Assembly (NCBI GenBank): GCA_945860295.1
Contig: CAMAQH010000001.1
Span: forward strand, 1-64,000
DNA length: 64,000 nucleotides
Direction of reading: 5' to 3'
Origin: Prosthecobacter debontii
GTDB taxonomy: Bacteria > Verrucomicrobiota > Verrucomicrobiia > Verrucomicrobiales > Verrucomicrobiaceae
The number at the start of each line of letters is the position of its first letter. Positions within the stretch are counted from its first letter, which is position 1. The notes beneath the pieces are model-generated. The model saw nothing but the letters and a program-made list of their open reading frames with translations. It searched no databases and was not told the origin of the DNA. A program made the position numbers and the translations under genes. Of this stretch, positions 24,056 to 38,946 are shown piece after piece.

Positions 24056-27411
<3,356 letters not shown>

Positions 27412-29009: not shown

Positions 29010-29063
29010 TCGCGCCTTCAATAGCCATGCAAGTCAGTGTGGAGTATCACGTTTCCTCACGTC

Positions 29064-30596
29064 ATGAAAATTCTCCTTTCTGCACTCCTATGCGCCCTTG
29101 GTGGTTCACTGTTTGCCGCATCGCAGCCGAACATCGTGATCATGCTCGTCGATGACATGGGTGTGATGGACACATCGGTGCCGTTTTTGACCGATGCAGA
29201 TGGCAAACCGAAGCGGTATCCGCTCAACGACTACTACCGCACGCCGAACATGGAGCGACTCGCCGCACGCGGCATTCGCTTCAACAACTTCTGCGCCATG
29301 AGCGTCTGCTCGCCCACGCGCATCAGCATCATGACGGGGCAAAATGCCGCACGGCATCGCACTACGAACTGGATCAATCCCGACAACGACAACGCAGGCC
29401 CACAAGGCCCTGCGGAGTGGAATTGGAAAGGCCTCAAAAAGAGTGATGTCACGCTGCCCGCTCTTCTACAGGCCAATGGCTACCGCACCATTCATGTTGG
29501 CAAAGGCCACTTCGCCCCCCGTGAGTTTGAAGCGGCAAATCCACAGATCATCGGCTTCGACATTAATGTCGCCGGTGCTTCGATAGGTGCGCCAGGGAGC
29601 TACTACGGCACAAAGAACTTCGGTGGCTTGACGGATAACCCGAAGGCCAAGAAGAAGCCCGGTGCTGCGGTTCCTGGATTGGAGAAATACCATGGCCAGG
29701 ACATCTTCCTCACCGAAGCACTGACCCTTGAAGCCAAAGCGCACGTCGGTGATGCGGTGAGAGAGAAGAAGCCCTTCCTCCTCTACTTCGCCCAATACGC
29801 GGTGCATGGGCCATTCAATTCAGATCCTCGTTTCGCCGATCATTACAAGGACAGCGGCAAACCTGCTCCTGCACAAGCATTCGCGACTCTCGTGGAAGGC
29901 ATGGACAAGTCCCTCGGCGACGTCCTCGACCATCTCGACGCCCTCGGTGTCGCCGATAACACGCTCATCCTTTTCCTTGGCGACAACGGCAGCGACGCTC
30001 CGCTTGGCAACGAACACGCAGTCGCCTGCGCTGCTCCTCTGCGCGGCAAAAAGGGCTCACACTATGAAGGCGGCATGCGCGTGCCCTTCATCGCCGCTTG
30101 GGCTAAGCCCAACAGCGAGAATGCACATCAGAAACGCCTGCCCATCGTCGCAGGAGCCATCCAAAGCCAGCAAGCGGCCGTGTATGACATGTTTCCTACC
30201 CTGCTAGGCCTTGCGGGTATCGACTCGCCAGCTCAACACATCGTCGATGGTGAAAAACTGGACACACTATTCATCGCCAAGCCTGACAGCAGCCGCAGCG
30301 AGACTTTCCTCATGCACTACCCGCATTCACCGCATCGCACCAACTACTTCACTACCTTCCGCGATGGCGAATGGAAAGTCATTTACCACTACTTTCCTAC
30401 CGAGGTCAGCGGCGGCAGACACTACCAGCTCTTCAACCTCAAAGCTGATCCCTTCGAGCAAACGGACCTCGCCACCACTAACCCAGTCGAACTGAAAAAG
30501 CTCATGCAGGGCCTCATCACCGGACTCGAAGCACAAAACGCCGTCTATCCCGTCGAAAAAGGCAGTTCCTCGCAGGCAAAACCGATGCTCCCCTGA
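29064..30596 (+). CDS. Exported sulfatase (S1 family)
   Basis: A 510-residue sulfatase starting at the ATG at 29064 (signal peptide MKILLSALLCALGGSLFAA). It has the metal site LVDDMGVMD, an insert (about residues 38-58) not seen in the others here, C82-S-P-T-R86 then ISIMTGQNA, KGHFAPRE in place of the usual GKWHLG, and LGDNGSD. The changed KGH segment keeps Lys and His but differs from its paralogues, suggesting another substrate subfamily. It stands alone between alkB and the SMR transporter gene. The 260-bp gap after it shows no clear feature. Confidence 0.92.
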   Translation: MKILLSALLCALGGSLFAASQPNIVIMLVDDMGVMDTSVPFLTDADGKPKRYPLNDYYRTPNMERLAARGIRFNNFCAMSVCSPTRISIMTGQNAARHRTTNWINPDNDNAGPQGPAEWNWKGLKKSDVTLPALLQANGYRTIHVGKGHFAPREFEAANPQIIGFDINVAGASIGAPGSYYGTKNFGGLTDNPKAKKKPGAAVPGLEKYHGQDIFLTEALTLEAKAHVGDAVREKKPFLLYFAQYAVHGPFNSDPRFADHYKDSGKPAPAQAFATLVEGMDKSLGDVLDHLDALGVADNTLILFLGDNGSDAPLGNEHAVACAAPLRGKKGSHYEGGMRVPFIAAWAKPNSENAHQKRLPIVAGAIQSQQAAVYDMFPTLLGLAGIDSPAQHIVDGEKLDTLFIAKPDSSRSETFLMHYPHSPHRTNYFTTFRDGEWKVIYHYFPTEVSGGRHYQLFNLKADPFEQTDLATTNPVELKKLMQGLITGLEAQNAVYPVEKGSSSQAKPMLP

Positions 30597-31436: not shown

Positions 31437-32168
31437 ATGTCAGCAGAGCACACTATAGACCTTACGTCCGATGATGGTGACCTTGAGTTCGCATCGGGCA
31501 TGAACGTCAACGCCGATGCTTCATGCTCGGACTTGATCGACACCTCGTTTTTTCGTGAACTGGTGGAGACTCTGTCGGTCCAACGCTGGGATGATCATCG
31601 CTACTATCATCACAGCCGCATCAATCAGTCGCTTCATCTCGTGAGCGCGCTCTGCTTCCTGGCTTCCTATGTGATCCTTTTCTATGATCCCGCGACCGCA
31701 GCGTTGCTCGCCTGGGGAGTTTCCATGACCACTAGACAGGCGGGGCACTTCTTCTTTGAGCCGCATGATTACGATCATGTGAACCACGCCTCCCACGAGC
31801 ACAAGGAGGAAATCAAAATCGGCTATAACCTCAGGCGCAAGGTGGTGCTGATGAGCGCATGGGTGCTCCTACCGGTGGCGCTCTGGTATGTTCCTTCCAT
31901 CGGTGGGGTGATCGAGCGTGCTACGGATTTCCAGGGCTACCTTCACAATGTCGGCATCGCCTGGCTCGCGCTTGGCGTCGGCGGCCTGCTCTTCCGCACC
32001 GTGCATCTGTTCTTCCTCTACAATGTTAAGACCGGCGTTGTCTGGGCGATCAAGATCCTCACCGATCCCTTCCATGATGCGATGATCTATCGCACCGCTC
32101 CTCTGCATCTTCTGCGTGGCCAGCTCATTGATCCCATGCTGCACGCTCAGCATGGTCGTCATCCTTGA
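31437..32168 (+). CDS. Membrane protein, Mpo1/DUF962-like (tentative)
   Basis: A 243-residue polytopic membrane protein with hydrophobic segments at about residues 70-95, 140-160, 172-195 and 198-215. Conserved polar residues HHSRINQSLH and QAGHFFFEPHDYDHVNH lie at membrane edges. That spacing resembles the Mpo1/DUF962 family, iron-dependent dioxygenases acting on 2-hydroxy fatty acids. The assignment rests on pattern only. It ends 65 bp from the convergent aminotransferase gene. Lipid genes nearby make a membrane-lipid role plausible. Confidence 0.55.
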   Translation: MSAEHTIDLTSDDGDLEFASGMNVNADASCSDLIDTSFFRELVETLSVQRWDDHRYYHHSRINQSLHLVSALCFLASYVILFYDPATAALLAWGVSMTTRQAGHFFFEPHDYDHVNHASHEHKEEIKIGYNLRRKVVLMSAWVLLPVALWYVPSIGGVIERATDFQGYLHNVGIAWLALGVGGLLFRTVHLFFLYNVKTGVVWAIKILTDPFHDAMIYRTAPLHLLRGQLIDPMLHAQHGRHP

Positions 32169-32232
32169 GTTATCCATCGATCGCGGTGTCGGTTAGGGCT
32201 TCCCATGGCCAACACCCATACGATCACAGAGT

Positions 32233-33855
32233 CTAACGTGGTGATCGACCGAACCTGTGTTTCAACATCTCCCTCAAAACACCGCGTCGGATTGTCTTGT
32301 TGGAAAGTTCTGTCCCCTGCCACCACCAGCCGTCCTTCTGCATTGTCTGTGCAGCGAGCAGGAAGCGATCACAGACAGTGGCGACATCGGCCTCGGAGAA
32401 GTTAAGGCTGAAGATGAATCGGCCCGTGCCTACCCACGAAAGAGCCAAGCCTTGAGCGCGCAGGTAATACTGCAGCATCCAATTGTAGCGGGACGGCTGC
32501 GTAAAAGACACCGTCCAGATCGTGGACATATTCGTCACCTTCACCGGCAGCCGCGCAGCGCTAAGTCGCTCATTGAACTGTTTAGCCCGGCGGTTCCACG
32601 TTGTGTCGAGATCGTCATACATGGCCTGCACCTCTCGGGTTTGCAGACGCTCAAGGAAGACCTGCATCGCGCCCATTACATAAGGGTGAGAGTTGAAGGT
32701 GCCGCGTGCGAAGCAGATGTCGGCCGGGCGCACCTCACGGAATCTCTTCATCAGTTCACGCTTGCCACACACCACACCCACGGGAAGCCCGCCGCCGAGC
32801 GTCTTGCCGTACGTGACCATGTCCGCTTTCACGCCGAAATACTCCTGCGCTCCACCGGGAGCGAGGCGGAAGCCAAGAAACACTTCGTCAAAAATCAGCA
32901 CAATGCCATTGGCCGTGCAAACCTCGCGCAACTTGCGCAGCCACTCGGTGTAGGCATCACGGTCATAGTGTGCATCACGCCCGCTGTCGATCAGGGCACC
33001 ATCGCCTGGGGCCGCCTTGTTTGGATGCAGAGCCTGCAAGGGATTGACCAGAACGCAGGCGATGTCCTTGCGCGTGCGCAGCACTTGCAGCGTGCGCTCG
33101 CTCATCTCCGCAAGCGTGTATACTTTTCCTGGTGGCATCGGGTTGCCCGGGCCGGGCTGCACATCATCCCACCAGCCATGGTAAGCGCCGCAGAAGCGGA
33201 CGATCTTCTTCCGACGAGTGTGATAACGCGCCAGCCTCACGGCCTGCATCACCGCCTCCGTTCCCGACATGTGGAAGGACACTTCATCCAGACCAGAGAT
33301 GCGGCACAGCTCTTCCGAGATCCATGCGACCGCAGGATGGTAACTGCCAAGCACCGCACCAAGCTGGGCGACCCGCGCGCTGCCTTCTGCGATGCACGAT
33401 TTGTAGAAGTCGTGGCCGAACACGTTCACGCCATAGCAGCCCGTCAAATCAATGAAGCTCTGCCCGTCGAGATCCGTGACCGTCACGCCAGCCGTTGCCT
33501 CGACGAACGAACCCACGGAAATCTTCTCCCGCAAAAACACGCTGTATTGAAACGGCACGCGATAGGCGCTCGTGAACTGAAGATCAGAAATCGTCGCCCG
33601 AGATTGCTTCGTCAGGGCGATGGACTTCGCATGGCGCGTGTTCAGCGTCAGCGCGAGCTGCTCAAAGCCTGCACGTCTGAGTGCCTGCACGTCCGCAGGC
33701 GCTCCGTCGGAGCTGAAGAACTCTTTCTCATCGTAGTAGTAGCCCGGCACCTGCGCAGCAAAGCGCTTGGCCATGCGCGAGTGCCCGATGAGGGAGCGAT
33801 GCTTTGCCCGCGAGAGTTCCACTCGCTGCCGAATAGGCCTCCAGAGAGCTGCCAA
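32233..33855 (-). CDS. Class III PLP aminotransferase, glutamate-1-semialdehyde aminomutase-like
   Basis: A 540-residue PLP enzyme of the class III aminotransferase fold. It shows GCYGVNVFGHD, the phosphate-binding SGTEAVMQAVRLAR, IVRFCGAYHGWWD, DEVFLGFR (Asp to the pyridine N) and the Schiff-base Lys in TYGKTLGGGLPVG. About 90 residues precede the standard domain and look genuine (GHSRMAKRFAAQVPGYYY), so I keep the TTG start at 33855; ATG at 33774 is the alternative. It is unlikely to be heme-pathway HemL because of this extension. It is divergent from the phosphatidylserine decarboxylase gene. Confidence 0.85.
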   Translation of the reverse strand: MAALWRPIRQRVELSRAKHRSLIGHSRMAKRFAAQVPGYYYDEKEFFSSDGAPADVQALRRAGFEQLALTLNTRHAKSIALTKQSRATISDLQFTSAYRVPFQYSVFLREKISVGSFVEATAGVTVTDLDGQSFIDLTGCYGVNVFGHDFYKSCIAEGSARVAQLGAVLGSYHPAVAWISEELCRISGLDEVSFHMSGTEAVMQAVRLARYHTRRKKIVRFCGAYHGWWDDVQPGPGNPMPPGKVYTLAEMSERTLQVLRTRKDIACVLVNPLQALHPNKAAPGDGALIDSGRDAHYDRDAYTEWLRKLREVCTANGIVLIFDEVFLGFRLAPGGAQEYFGVKADMVTYGKTLGGGLPVGVVCGKRELMKRFREVRPADICFARGTFNSHPYVMGAMQVFLERLQTREVQAMYDDLDTTWNRRAKQFNERLSAARLPVKVTNMSTIWTVSFTQPSRYNWMLQYYLRAQGLALSWVGTGRFIFSLNFSEADVATVCDRFLLAAQTMQKDGWWWQGTELSNKTIRRGVLREMLKHRFGRSPR

Positions 33856-33949
33856 TGCTGCCGCCGCGATTGCTGTGTAAGTGACTTGTTCGTTCAGAGG
33901 AATTTCGGGGGTTAATGTACAATTTCTAGGTCCATCTCAGTACCAAACA

Positions 33950-34825
33950 ATGAAAACAATGTTACAGCTTCGACAATGGCGGGACAGGCTCCTGCTGCAA
34001 GAGGACCTCAACTTTCTCCTCACCAATCGCGTTCCAAGGCAGGCACTCACCCGCTTAATGGGACGATTCAGCAAGATCCGGAATCCATGGATTTGTCGGC
34101 TTTCCATCGCCATCTGGCGAATGTTCACTGACCTCGATCTCAGTGAGGCGAAGAAGCAGAGCTTCGACAGTCTGCATGACTGCTTCACTCGCGAGTTGCT
34201 ACCAGGTGTGCGATCCATCGACAGCGATCCCAAGGTTCTCTCCAGCCCTTGCGACGGCATCGTAGGAGCCAGTGGCACCGTGCAGTGCGGTGAAATCTTC
34301 CAAGCCAAAGGCTTCCCTTACCGCGTTGAAGACCTTTTCGGCGATCCCGAGCGGGCCGCTCCGTTCATGAACGGCACCTACGTCACTCTGCGGCTCACCT
34401 CCAGCATGTATCACCGTTTCCACGCGCCCTGCGCAGCGACCATCCAGCACGTCACCTACCTGAGCGGCGACACTTGGAACGTCAACCCCATTGCACTCAG
34501 ACGTGTCGAGCGCCTTTTCTGCCGTAATGAACGCGCCGTCATTCGCATGGCATTGCCAGATGGAACGCCGCTGGCACTCGTGCCCGTAGCCGCCATCCTC
34601 GTCGCGAGCATTCGCCTCCATTTTCTCAATGTGCTGCTGCATCTCCGCTGGCCAGGTCCGAATGAAATGCCGTGTAACCAAGCCGTCGTCAAAGGCGAGG
34701 AACTAGGCTGGTTCGAGCACGGTTCCACGATCATCGTGTTCGCACCACCTGGCTTCACATTGGCTCCAGGAATCGAGACTGGGAAACAGATCCGCATGGG
34801 CCAGGCGTTGCTGAAGTTCGCATAG
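33950..34825 (+). CDS. Phosphatidylserine decarboxylase-family protein
   Basis: About 291 residues from the ATG at 33950. The family features are LSSPCDGIVGASG, the substrate-pocket MYHRFHAP, and the self-cleavage motif GWFEHGSTIIVF, where Ser of G-S-T becomes the pyruvoyl group. Members convert phosphatidylserine to phosphatidylethanolamine at the membrane. The N-terminal arm (residues 1-60) is typical of the longer forms. It is divergent from the aminotransferase and convergent with an alpha/beta hydrolase. It could be the housekeeping Psd or a specialised decarboxylase for another amino lipid. Confidence 0.9.
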   Translation: MKTMLQLRQWRDRLLLQEDLNFLLTNRVPRQALTRLMGRFSKIRNPWICRLSIAIWRMFTDLDLSEAKKQSFDSLHDCFTRELLPGVRSIDSDPKVLSSPCDGIVGASGTVQCGEIFQAKGFPYRVEDLFGDPERAAPFMNGTYVTLRLTSSMYHRFHAPCAATIQHVTYLSGDTWNVNPIALRRVERLFCRNERAVIRMALPDGTPLALVPVAAILVASIRLHFLNVLLHLRWPGPNEMPCNQAVVKGEELGWFEHGSTIIVFAPPGFTLAPGIETGKQIRMGQALLKFA

Positions 34826-34828
34826 TCA

Positions 34829-35530
34829 CTACTCCAACACGTGACTCTTCAGGAATTCAGTGATCAATACCGCCGACGGAACAGGATTGGTGAAGAGACC
34901 CTGATGCGAACCCGCGACCTCAACGATATGCGTTTGAGGCGCGAGGCTCTTCACCTCATCACAGTTGGCGCGCGGGACCACATCATCCTGCGTGAAGGCG
35001 AGATACATCAAAGGCGCAGCGCATTGCCGCAACTCCACACGGACATCCACACCCAACACTGCTCTCGACCGCGCCGCTAAAACCCGTGCTCTCACCCTGC
35101 GCCAAAGCACCGCCTTGGCCCGCCGCAGATCATTGCTCGCAAAGCCAGGGATCACATAGCGAATGCGCCGGACCGCACGGAGCGCCGCTATCACCGGTGT
35201 CCGCGTGATCGAACGAAACCGAGTCAACTCCGGACGCGGAGGCATCACAAACGACGCACACAAGACAACCGCAGATACCTGCGAGGGACGTCGCGCTGCC
35301 AGCATCAAAGCAAGCGGCCCCCCGAAGGAGGAACCAAGAACCGCAAACTTCCCCATCGACGCCACCCTTTGCTCAACCCGATCGATCAGTTCTTCATAAC
35401 TGTTCGTGCCTGCCGCCGGATAGTTCAGGACCACAGGCTTGATCCATGACGGAAGATTGGCCAGCAAAGGACCAAACAAGACCTCCGTCCCATCAAGTCC
35501 GGGAAGAATCACAAGGGAAGTCTCATTCAT
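34829..35530 (-). CDS. Alpha/beta hydrolase
   Basis: About 233 residues from the ATG at 35530 (MNETSLVILPGLDGTE); the frame stays open to 35605. The nucleophile elbow is LGSSFGGPLAL, the acid is probably the Asp pair in FTQDDVVPR, and the catalytic His lies in AGSHQGLFTNP. No signal peptide is seen, so it acts in the cytoplasm. It ends 3 bp from the stop of the phosphatidylserine decarboxylase gene on the other strand. A thioesterase or lipase-like role would suit the lipid surroundings, but that is inference. Confidence 0.85.
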   Translation of the reverse strand: MNETSLVILPGLDGTEVLFGPLLANLPSWIKPVVLNYPAAGTNSYEELIDRVEQRVASMGKFAVLGSSFGGPLALMLAARRPSQVSAVVLCASFVMPPRPELTRFRSITRTPVIAALRAVRRIRYVIPGFASNDLRRAKAVLWRRVRARVLAARSRAVLGVDVRVELRQCAAPLMYLAFTQDDVVPRANCDEVKSLAPQTHIVEVAGSHQGLFTNPVPSAVLITEFLKSHVLE

Positions 35531-35898
35531 TGTTTGATCGCGAGCACTGTTCTCGAGTCTGTTATCAATCGTTTCATCAATCCCTTCAATCGTCATTAGG
35601 ATCACAACTCAGCATCGCTAGCTGCGAAACAAACGAAACCCTGTGCAACGATCTCGTCACTGATCCACCTGGCCCAGGCCTAATTTGTCCATCATTGGAC
35701 TTGTTCCCGGATAATTTTGAGAGCTGCGCTGCCTGTGAAAACCGCCTTAAAATTGAGGAGAAACACGAGTTTTGACCGAAAAATGACGTGATTTTTGTAG
35801 CCCTTGGCTCGCGAGGAACAAGTCTATTCCCATGGGGTAATTCAAGGCCTTGAGACGCTCGGCCGCGCTTTTGAAAATTATGACGCCATCGGCCGCTG
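35531..35898. other. Intergenic stretch with no gene seen
   Basis: No convincing coding frame, RNA gene or repeat was seen in these 368 bp. They should hold the promoter of the minus-strand hydrolase. The right part abuts the decayed gene at 35899 and may include its unrecognisable 5' portion. Confidence 0.4.
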
Positions 35899-37617: not shown

Positions 37618-38946
37618 ATGAGAAATCTGTGCTTCATCCTGGGCCTTTTGTGCTCGTCGCTTTTCGCGGCATCGCCGCCAAACATCCTACTCATCTTTGC
37701 CGATGATCATGGCTATGGCGATGTCTCCGCCTACCACGCCTCCGATGTGCGCACGCCAAATATCGACCGCATTGGCAGCGAGGGCATTCTTTTCACGGCG
37801 ATGCGAGCAAACTGTACCGTGTGCTCACCTTCACGCGCAGCTTTGCTCACGGGACGCTACGCGGATCGTGTCGGCGTACCGGGTGTGATCCGTACCAAGC
37901 CGGAGGACTCCTGGGGCTACTTCAAACAGGGTGTGCCGACGATTGCAGATGAATTGAAAAAGGCAGGCTATCACACAGGCATCATCGGCAAATGGCACCT
38001 CGGCCTGGAATCACCGAACACGCCGAACGAGCGCGGTTTTGACCACTTCCACGGCTTCCTCGGCGACATGATGGACAGCTACACGACGCATCTGCGCGGC
38101 GGTCAAAACTTCATGCGCCTCAACAACAAAGTCATTGATCCGCAGGGCCACGCGACAGACATCTTCACCGATTGGGCCAGCGATTACATCCGCGAGCGAG
38201 CCAAAACAAAGGACAAGCCGTTCTTCCTCTACCTCGCTTACAACGCGCCGCATTTCCCCATCGAACCGCCTGCCGAATGGCTAGCAAAGGTCCAAGCGCG
38301 TGCGCCTCAACTCGACGAGAAACGAGCGATGAACGTGGCCTTTGTGGAGCATCTCGATGATCGCATCGGACAGGTGCTTGCTGCACTTAAAGAGTCCGGT
38401 TTGGAAGAAAACACCGTGGTCGTTTTCAGCGCGGACAATGGCGGCTCGCTCCCACACGGCCAGAACAACGACCCATGGCGTGGGGGCAAGCAGGACCACT
38501 ACGACGGCGGTCTGTGCGTGCCTTTCATGATGCGCTGGCCTGCTCAAATTAAGCCCGGTAGCCGCAGCGACTACCAAGGTTTGAACTTCGATCTCTTCCC
38601 CACTTTCCTCGAACTCGCGGGAGCCAAGCGCTCGCCTGAACTCGATGCTGTGAGCCTCGTGCCCATTCTCAAAGGCGGCACCATCACCACACGGCGCGAT
38701 CTTTATTTTGTTCGACGCGAAGGCGGCAAAACGTACGGCGGCAAGAACTACGAAGCACTCATTCGCGGCGATTGGAAGCTCATGCAAAACGATCCCTATA
38801 GCCCGCTTGAGCTCTACAATCTCAGGCACGATCCGCAGGAAAAGACCAACGTCGCCACCAAGGCACCGAAGATCTTCAACGAGATGGCCGAGGGCCTGCG
38901 AAAACACATCCAGCGCGGCGGCAGCACGCCATGGCAGAGGCCGTGA
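37618..38946 (+). CDS. Exported sulfatase (S1 family)
   Basis: A 442-residue sulfatase with a signal peptide (MRNLCFILGLLCSSLFAA), metal site FADDHGYGD, C69-S-P-S-R73 followed by AALLTGRYADRVG, GKWHLGLE, and FSADNGGSL. It is in a same-strand run with the LRR gene, a pectate lyase and a glycoside-hydrolase-like gene, so it likely works on a pectin-like or mixed sulfated polysaccharide outside the cytoplasm. The start ATG is the only one giving the signal peptide. Confidence 0.93.
   Translation: MRNLCFILGLLCSSLFAASPPNILLIFADDHGYGDVSAYHASDVRTPNIDRIGSEGILFTAMRANCTVCSPSRAALLTGRYADRVGVPGVIRTKPEDSWGYFKQGVPTIADELKKAGYHTGIIGKWHLGLESPNTPNERGFDHFHGFLGDMMDSYTTHLRGGQNFMRLNNKVIDPQGHATDIFTDWASDYIRERAKTKDKPFFLYLAYNAPHFPIEPPAEWLAKVQARAPQLDEKRAMNVAFVEHLDDRIGQVLAALKESGLEENTVVVFSADNGGSLPHGQNNDPWRGGKQDHYDGGLCVPFMMRWPAQIKPGSRSDYQGLNFDLFPTFLELAGAKRSPELDAVSLVPILKGGTITTRRDLYFVRREGGKTYGGKNYEALIRGDWKLMQNDPYSPLELYNLRHDPQEKTNVATKAPKIFNEMAEGLRKHIQRGGSTPWQRP

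Follow-up and report, generated by a model that had tools for sequence, protein, structure and literature searches.

Under phosphate shortage, PlcP and Agt swap phospholipids for glycolipids, according to two papers (PMC9239053; PMC4796936). In the former, the methanotroph PlcP is described with LpxH as outgroup and Agt as a GT4 glycosyltransferase, and the account of plcP gene contexts in the latter names btaA/btaB and glycosyltransferases, and not the three-gene module described below. In a separate biosynthetic system, the AMT domain of the mycosubtilin synthase MycA transfers the amine of glutamine onto a beta-ketothioester, as stated in PMC3870968. Here we analyzed a stretch of 64,000 nucleotides from Prosthecobacter debontii (GCA_945860295.1, contig CAMAQH010000001.1, positions 1 to 64,000; hereafter the window), in which a phosphatidylserine decarboxylase gene (psd), a class III aminotransferase gene (AT) and a gene for an Mpo1-like membrane protein (mpo) lie together. 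We consider it probable, on balance, that psd, AT and mpo form a horizontally spread module of phosphate-stress membrane-lipid remodeling, such remodeling itself being known. The module resembles PlcP-Agt remodeling (PMC4796936; PMC9239053) in having PlcP-like and GT4 genes in the neighborhood or genome and, in many proteobacterial copies, a Pho-box-like promoter, and differs from it in adding three enzymes. No description of the module was found in the literature searched, whose coverage was without most subscription papers and is therefore weak evidence of absence.

The module comprises psd (33881..34825, + strand), AT (32233..33855, − strand) and mpo (31437..32168, + strand). The initial annotation had grouped these genes with an alpha/beta hydrolase gene (34829..35605, − strand, assigned by family search) as a candidate gene cluster for membrane lipids and the likely site of an undescribed pathway, and all four are present at these coordinates in the list of open reading frames (ORFs) of the window. 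Scanning genome contigs with AT gave 349 relatives; the 80 best matches were retained as loci, so that the description covers close relatives. Psd is encoded in 79/80 and the Mpo-like protein in 78/80 of these loci, and the three missing-gene cases fit contig ends: L075 and L095 are cut off by a contig edge, and in L114 the contig stops about where mpo would be expected, judged by its close relative L127. Wherever the genes are present, psd and mpo flank AT on the opposite strand (psd< AT> mpo<) in 80/80 loci; a nucleotide-sugar dehydrogenase gene lies between psd and AT in two of them (L068:3790-4569 and L078:6392-7810), and in L127 mpo is shifted by about 3 kb. Protein distances over 78 rows agree as well, with r 0.86 for AT-Psd and 0.76 for AT-Mpo (permutation maxima 0.08 and 0.10, respectively). 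The results show that psd, AT and mpo are inherited as one unit and are not scattered in relatives. The hydrolase, present in 2/80 loci (L061, 65%; L094, 40%), is a neighbor outside the conserved module, such that the grouping first proposed holds for three of its four genes.

We also surveyed one family of 299 genomes, including beta proteobacterium AAP65 (G445), Curvibacter gracilis and Rubrivivax pictus, and found AT at E ≤ 1e-100 in 93 of them. All three genes occur in 20/20 survey loci, at least 5 of whose genomes are already among the 80; the psd< AT> mpo< layout is seen in 17, and in L153, L155 and L156 mpo, AT and psd are collinear on one strand. At least two Psd genes are present in 91/93 genomes with AT vs. 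4/206 genomes without it; genomes with two or three Psd genes and no AT are G508, G632, G675 and G712. On a 385-kb plasmid of Sphingomonas parapaucimobilis (L141, 11039-25058), the module, whose Mpo-like gene was recognized by eye, and a PmtA-like gene have a fatty acid desaturase, lptFG and a sphingolipid-like gene set in their vicinity.

The Psd of the window is a predicted type I enzyme: it scores over the TIGR00163 cut-off (150.3 vs. 111.75 bits, NCBIfam), matches the solved structures of the E. coli enzyme (6l06 and 7cnw, E 4e-35), being homologous across most of the beta chain, and carries the motifs SPCDG, MYHRFH and HGST. The D and H are found in at least 97% and HGST in at least 80% of 80 rows, some of which end early at contig ends; we take these D, H and S residues to be the self-cleavage triad. 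The usual processing-site motif of Psd is LGST, and the window protein differs from the E. coli enzyme in having HGST at this site and in being a second copy tied to AT. Based on the sequence and its homologues, ATG 33950 is a more likely psd start than GTG 33881. The initial annotation had considered that this Psd might be the only one in its genome and simply make phosphatidylethanolamine (PE). We found a second Psd in the genome of the window (G000:C3:118045), and at least two copies in 41/43 carriers, the window's genome included; the carriers, used for all counts of this kind given here, are G000 and the genomes of 42 loci from the set of 80. It could still be argued that the Psd of the module just adds PE capacity, with AT and the Mpo-like protein sharing its regulon but doing unrelated accessory work, such as the breakdown of fatty acids or amines, given that family score and conserved D, H and S mark this Psd as an ordinary type I enzyme, and that the proposed setting involves membrane rebuilding. 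We regard this as unlikely, since nearly all carriers already have another Psd, and since the Psd of the module is linked across phyla to AT and not to other PE genes.

The neighborhood of the module is rich in lipid and phosphate genes. Neighbors were counted from genes called by a simple codon score and grouped by single linkage; the counts are lower bounds because many loci stop at contig edges, and families were named by testing one representative per cluster. Near the 80 loci we found genes for a GT4 glycosyltransferase (69 loci), LplT (24), a PlcP-like metallophosphoesterase (21), a PmtA-like methyltransferase (18, of which 17 are Bradyrhizobium-like, the gene lying beside mpo in Bradyrhizobium), a nucleotide-sugar (UDP-glucose-type) dehydrogenase (8), a diglucosyl-diacylglycerol (DAG)-synthase-like enzyme (8), PPK2 (6), PhoU (6), PhoB (5) and PhoR (5). 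The representatives of LplT, PhoB, PhoR, PhoU, PPK2 and the nucleotide-sugar dehydrogenase score over their NCBIfam cut-offs; those of the GT4, PmtA-like and diglucosyl-DAG-like groups give lipid-family matches below cut-off, and that of the metallophosphoesterase gives LpxH-model matches below cut-off. “PlcP” and “Agt” are thus putative names here, the former based on the LpxH-type match together with the place of the gene. In L068 and L078, the dehydrogenase, psd, DAG-glycosyltransferase-like and plcP-like genes all run in one direction. A PlcP-like protein is found at E ≤ 1e-20 in 41/43 carriers, including G000 (40% identity), and, in the surveyed family at E ≤ 1e-70, in 92/93 genomes with AT vs. 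122/206 without; the direction of this difference is plain, and its p-value (Fisher, 1e-15) overstates the case because genomes of one family are not independent. Together with unit inheritance and the second Psd, these neighbors support the initial view that the cluster serves membrane lipids by an undescribed pathway, and the link to phosphate stress goes beyond that annotation, which had named none.

A role of the module as a substitute for ornithine or betaine lipids was considered as well. The OlsB-type family (PF13444, which also picks up other acyltransferases) is found in 32/43 and the BtaA family in 5/43 carriers, the latter coming from genomes titled as Verrucomicrobiota or from that of the window; these counts give no clean exclusion of ornithine or betaine lipids and are therefore not used as evidence. 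The BtaA-family gene of G000 is on contig C42. In the genome of L061 (G435, C131, 5211-8909), about 1.8 kb separates a BtaA-family gene from a PlcP-like one, so that betaine lipids may be a further product of this carrier when phosphate is low.

We then analyzed the region between psd and AT in the 80 loci and the window, which gave 81 regions, 76 with both anchors, 75 with a usable ATG, and 43 after a 70% identity filter. In 21 of these 43 regions, TTGACA, read towards psd with at least 5/6 letters, occurs at a constant distance ahead of the psd start, compared with a maximum of 4 in 1000 shuffles and of 6 in 300 samples of 43 other genes from the same loci. Read towards AT, the layout is TTTTCAT-N4-STGTCAA-N10-TAnAnA. 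The consensus of the Pho box is given as CTGTCATNNNNCTGTCAT in PMC11828411, and the stretch upstream of E. coli phoB (L143) reads TTTTCAT-AAAT-CTGTCAT-N10-CATAAT. A sigma-70 promoter was considered and rejected, the gap from TTGTCA to TAnAnA being too short, and the spacing fits a Pho promoter. Sites with at least 11/14 letters occur at 2.1 per kb in the psd-AT regions vs. 0.14 per kb across the loci, and upstream of GT4 (31/72), mpo (19/74), PlcP-like (4/21) and LplT (3/24) genes, vs. 54/647 other genes. The phoB stretch was the sole working control: no 11/14 site was found in the E. coli phoA stretch (L142), probably because it stops short of the promoter. The corresponding promoter-like stretch of AT in the window (33923..33956, − strand) reads TTTTCAT-N4-TGGTACT-N10-TAGAAA. 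As judged from sequence, many proteobacterial copies thus appear to have a Pho-type promoter at fixed spacing, and the window would have it weakly so.

AT is predicted to be a class III pyridoxal phosphate (PLP) aminotransferase (PF00202, E 3e-36, Pfam search). Among solved structures, the AMT domain of MycA (6kfm, 6kfu) is its closest relative in both sequence and predicted fold, with E 1.8e-46 to 6kfm in sequence and a TM-score of 0.70/0.83 at 26% identity in fold; the sequence alignment starts at about residue 104, and the fold match spans more. AT differs from this domain in being a stand-alone ORF of 540 aa, outside any polyketide synthase/nonribosomal peptide synthetase (PKS/NRPS) polypeptide, with a hydrophobic N terminus. 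The AT frame remains open 5′ of the listed TTG start and there reads a hydrophobic stretch (LNEQVTYTAIAAAALAALWRP in the window frame, 33835..33897, − strand) that matches hydrophobic N termini in homologues; those homologues whose start is visible have a hydrophobic segment, then a basic stretch, then R..LS.AKH.SL.GH. Because homologue N termini extend there, the true start is probably upstream of the listed TTG, perhaps CTG at 33897, and the hydrophobic N terminus can be read as a predicted membrane anchor. The non-standard N-terminal extension pointed out by the initial annotation is therefore real and exceeds the listed ORF, consisting of a conserved hydrophobic segment and a part common to mycosubtilin-type AMT domains.

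Terminal amines are frequent substrates of class III enzymes, among which is ethanolamine-phosphate lyase. One could imagine a head-group turnover in which Psd makes PE, PlcP cuts it, AT deaminates PE or phosphoethanolamine, and the Mpo-like protein oxidizes the resulting aldehyde, which would agree with the near-universal PlcP-like protein of the carriers and with the PmtA-like gene beside mpo in Bradyrhizobium. This scheme seems quite improbable to us, as a membrane-anchored enzyme would be needless for a soluble phosphoamine, and the closest known relatives of AT are AMT and GSA-type enzymes rather than ethanolamine-phosphate lyase.

The product of mpo is predicted to be an integral-membrane protein, its first ~35 residues being perhaps over-called. 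The window protein matches PF06127 weakly (17.8 bits, Pfam cut-off 24), and 56/59 Mpo-like homologues match this family at E ≤ 0.01 (best 3.4e-5), across the histidine-bearing part. Compared with yeast Mpo1 and PF06127, the window protein is below cut-off and longer, with conserved C-terminal residues outside the match. H58, N63, H67, H104 and E108 are invariant in the 59 homologues, and such histidines presumably bind iron. The structure model has a pLDDT of 86.7 and long helices, and is low at the N terminus. From the family match and the invariant histidines, the protein is a putative iron oxygenase; the activity typical of Mpo1-like dioxygenases is Fe(II)-dependent oxygenation of a 2-hydroxy fatty acid. 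Given that yeast Mpo1 takes part in phytosphingosine breakdown, and that the module on the Sphingomonas plasmid lies about 10 kb from the sphingolipid-like gene set, the lipid of the module might be a long-chain base, sphingoid or otherwise derived from serine, a possibility raised by the initial annotation. A clear serine palmitoyltransferase (Spt; 47-48% identity) is, however, found in 3/43 carriers, the remaining Spt matches at E ≤ 1e-40 being 29-35% identical and looking like related enzymes, and we therefore dropped the sphingolipid link as very improbable.

That AT is an ordinary HemL paralogue, or the neighborhood a matter of chance, has a negligible likelihood: HemL models are the top-ranked NCBIfam matches of AT, but they fall under cut-off (191.4 vs. 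527.3 bits for TIGR00713), a separate HemL-sized match lies in G000 at C3:63903, and chance is contradicted by the conserved linkage of psd, AT and mpo.

Based on these data, we propose that the module acts in phosphate-stress lipid remodeling as follows. When phosphate falls, PhoB would switch on the module along with plcP/agt; Psd would supply a primary-amine lipid (PE or PE-like); the Mpo1-like oxygenase would oxidize an acyl-chain or head-group position of the lipid to a carbonyl; and the membrane-anchored AT would aminate the resulting carbonyl, by analogy with the action of the related AMT domain on a beta-ketothioester. Such a pathway would yield an amine-bearing lipid helping to substitute for phospholipids. 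The kinship of AT with AMT favors a carbonyl beta to the acyl group, and its tie to Psd favors the head group; we do not choose between these two targets, and this particular order of steps (Psd, oxygenase, AT) is doubtful.

Several observations weigh against the remodeling module as proposed. For the enzymes, the AT-AMT identity is only ~26%, and the Mpo1 match of the window falls under the Pfam cut-off; the Mpo-like model has no PDB match at E ≤ 0.001 with Foldseek (best 0.24) and no VIA-align Z ≥ 5 against 396 chains (best 4.2), which proves neither a new fold nor the absence of a known one. For the context, the PlcP and Agt representatives match only general families, plus lipid models below cut-off, the PlcP-like gene of G000 sits on a different contig from the module, and neither the genomes of one family nor the near-identical Bradyrhizobium loci are independent. 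For the promoter, a site of at least 11/14 letters lies upstream of only 6/58 called psd ORF starts, which are often placed too far upstream; the first Pho half-site shares letters with the psd start codon and is in part constrained by the coding sequence; the Bradyrhizobium psd-AT loci are near-copies; and in the window the first half-site and the −10-like part are kept, but not the second Pho half-site.

Concerning the origin of the window's copy, no AT orthologue was found in 34 same-genus genomes (best E 9e-35), and the best AT match in 387 genomes of the phylum besides G000 (E 9e-52, 33% identity) lies within a 3989-aa open frame, taken as a putative PKS/NRPS. In an AT tree of 81 proteins, the window clusters with two Verrucomicrobiota bins (support 100/100), and these three belong to a larger supported group (24 rows, 95/84), in which 18 rows are Pseudomonadota. 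L107, also labeled Verrucomicrobiota, is placed elsewhere, such that the label needs two changes on the tree; species labels on bins (e.g., Akkermansia muciniphila) are those of the submitters and may be wrong. The position in the tree and the absence in same-genus genomes suggest that the window's copy was gained by transfer, most likely from Proteobacteria.

Elsewhere in the window, upstream of the module, family searches identified an AlkB-like 2-oxoglutarate-Fe(II) oxygenase (PF13532, 28386-29009) and a small multidrug resistance protein (PF00893, 30849-31175). By eye, sulfatase-like ORFs, typical of the phylum, flank the module on both sides (29037-30596 and 37618-38946), and a catalase-peroxidase-like ORF (− strand) faces an ORF for a LysR-type regulator (+ strand) at 24056-27411, resembling a katG/oxyR pair.

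Taken together, these results indicate that the module probably makes or modifies an undescribed amine-bearing lipid. More tentatively, and with somewhat less than an even chance in our estimate, it may make a bacterial membrane aminolipid of a new class, which would probably contain little or no phosphorus. In this reading, a membrane-anchored transaminase would place the amine on a lipid carbonyl, Psd would act on a substrate other than ordinary phosphatidylserine, and the module would be spread in Burkholderiales, Bradyrhizobium and some Verrucomicrobiota within the phosphate-starvation response. Membrane-lipid replacement under phosphate stress shapes bacterial phosphorus demand, and the module is found in many soil and freshwater bacteria, beside genes replacing phosphorus-containing membrane lipids; environmental carriers that can be cultured include Hydrogenophaga flava, Curvibacter lanceolatus and Rubrivivax rivuli. 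Its presence in 93/299 genomes of one family would tie a widespread genotype to an undescribed lipid.

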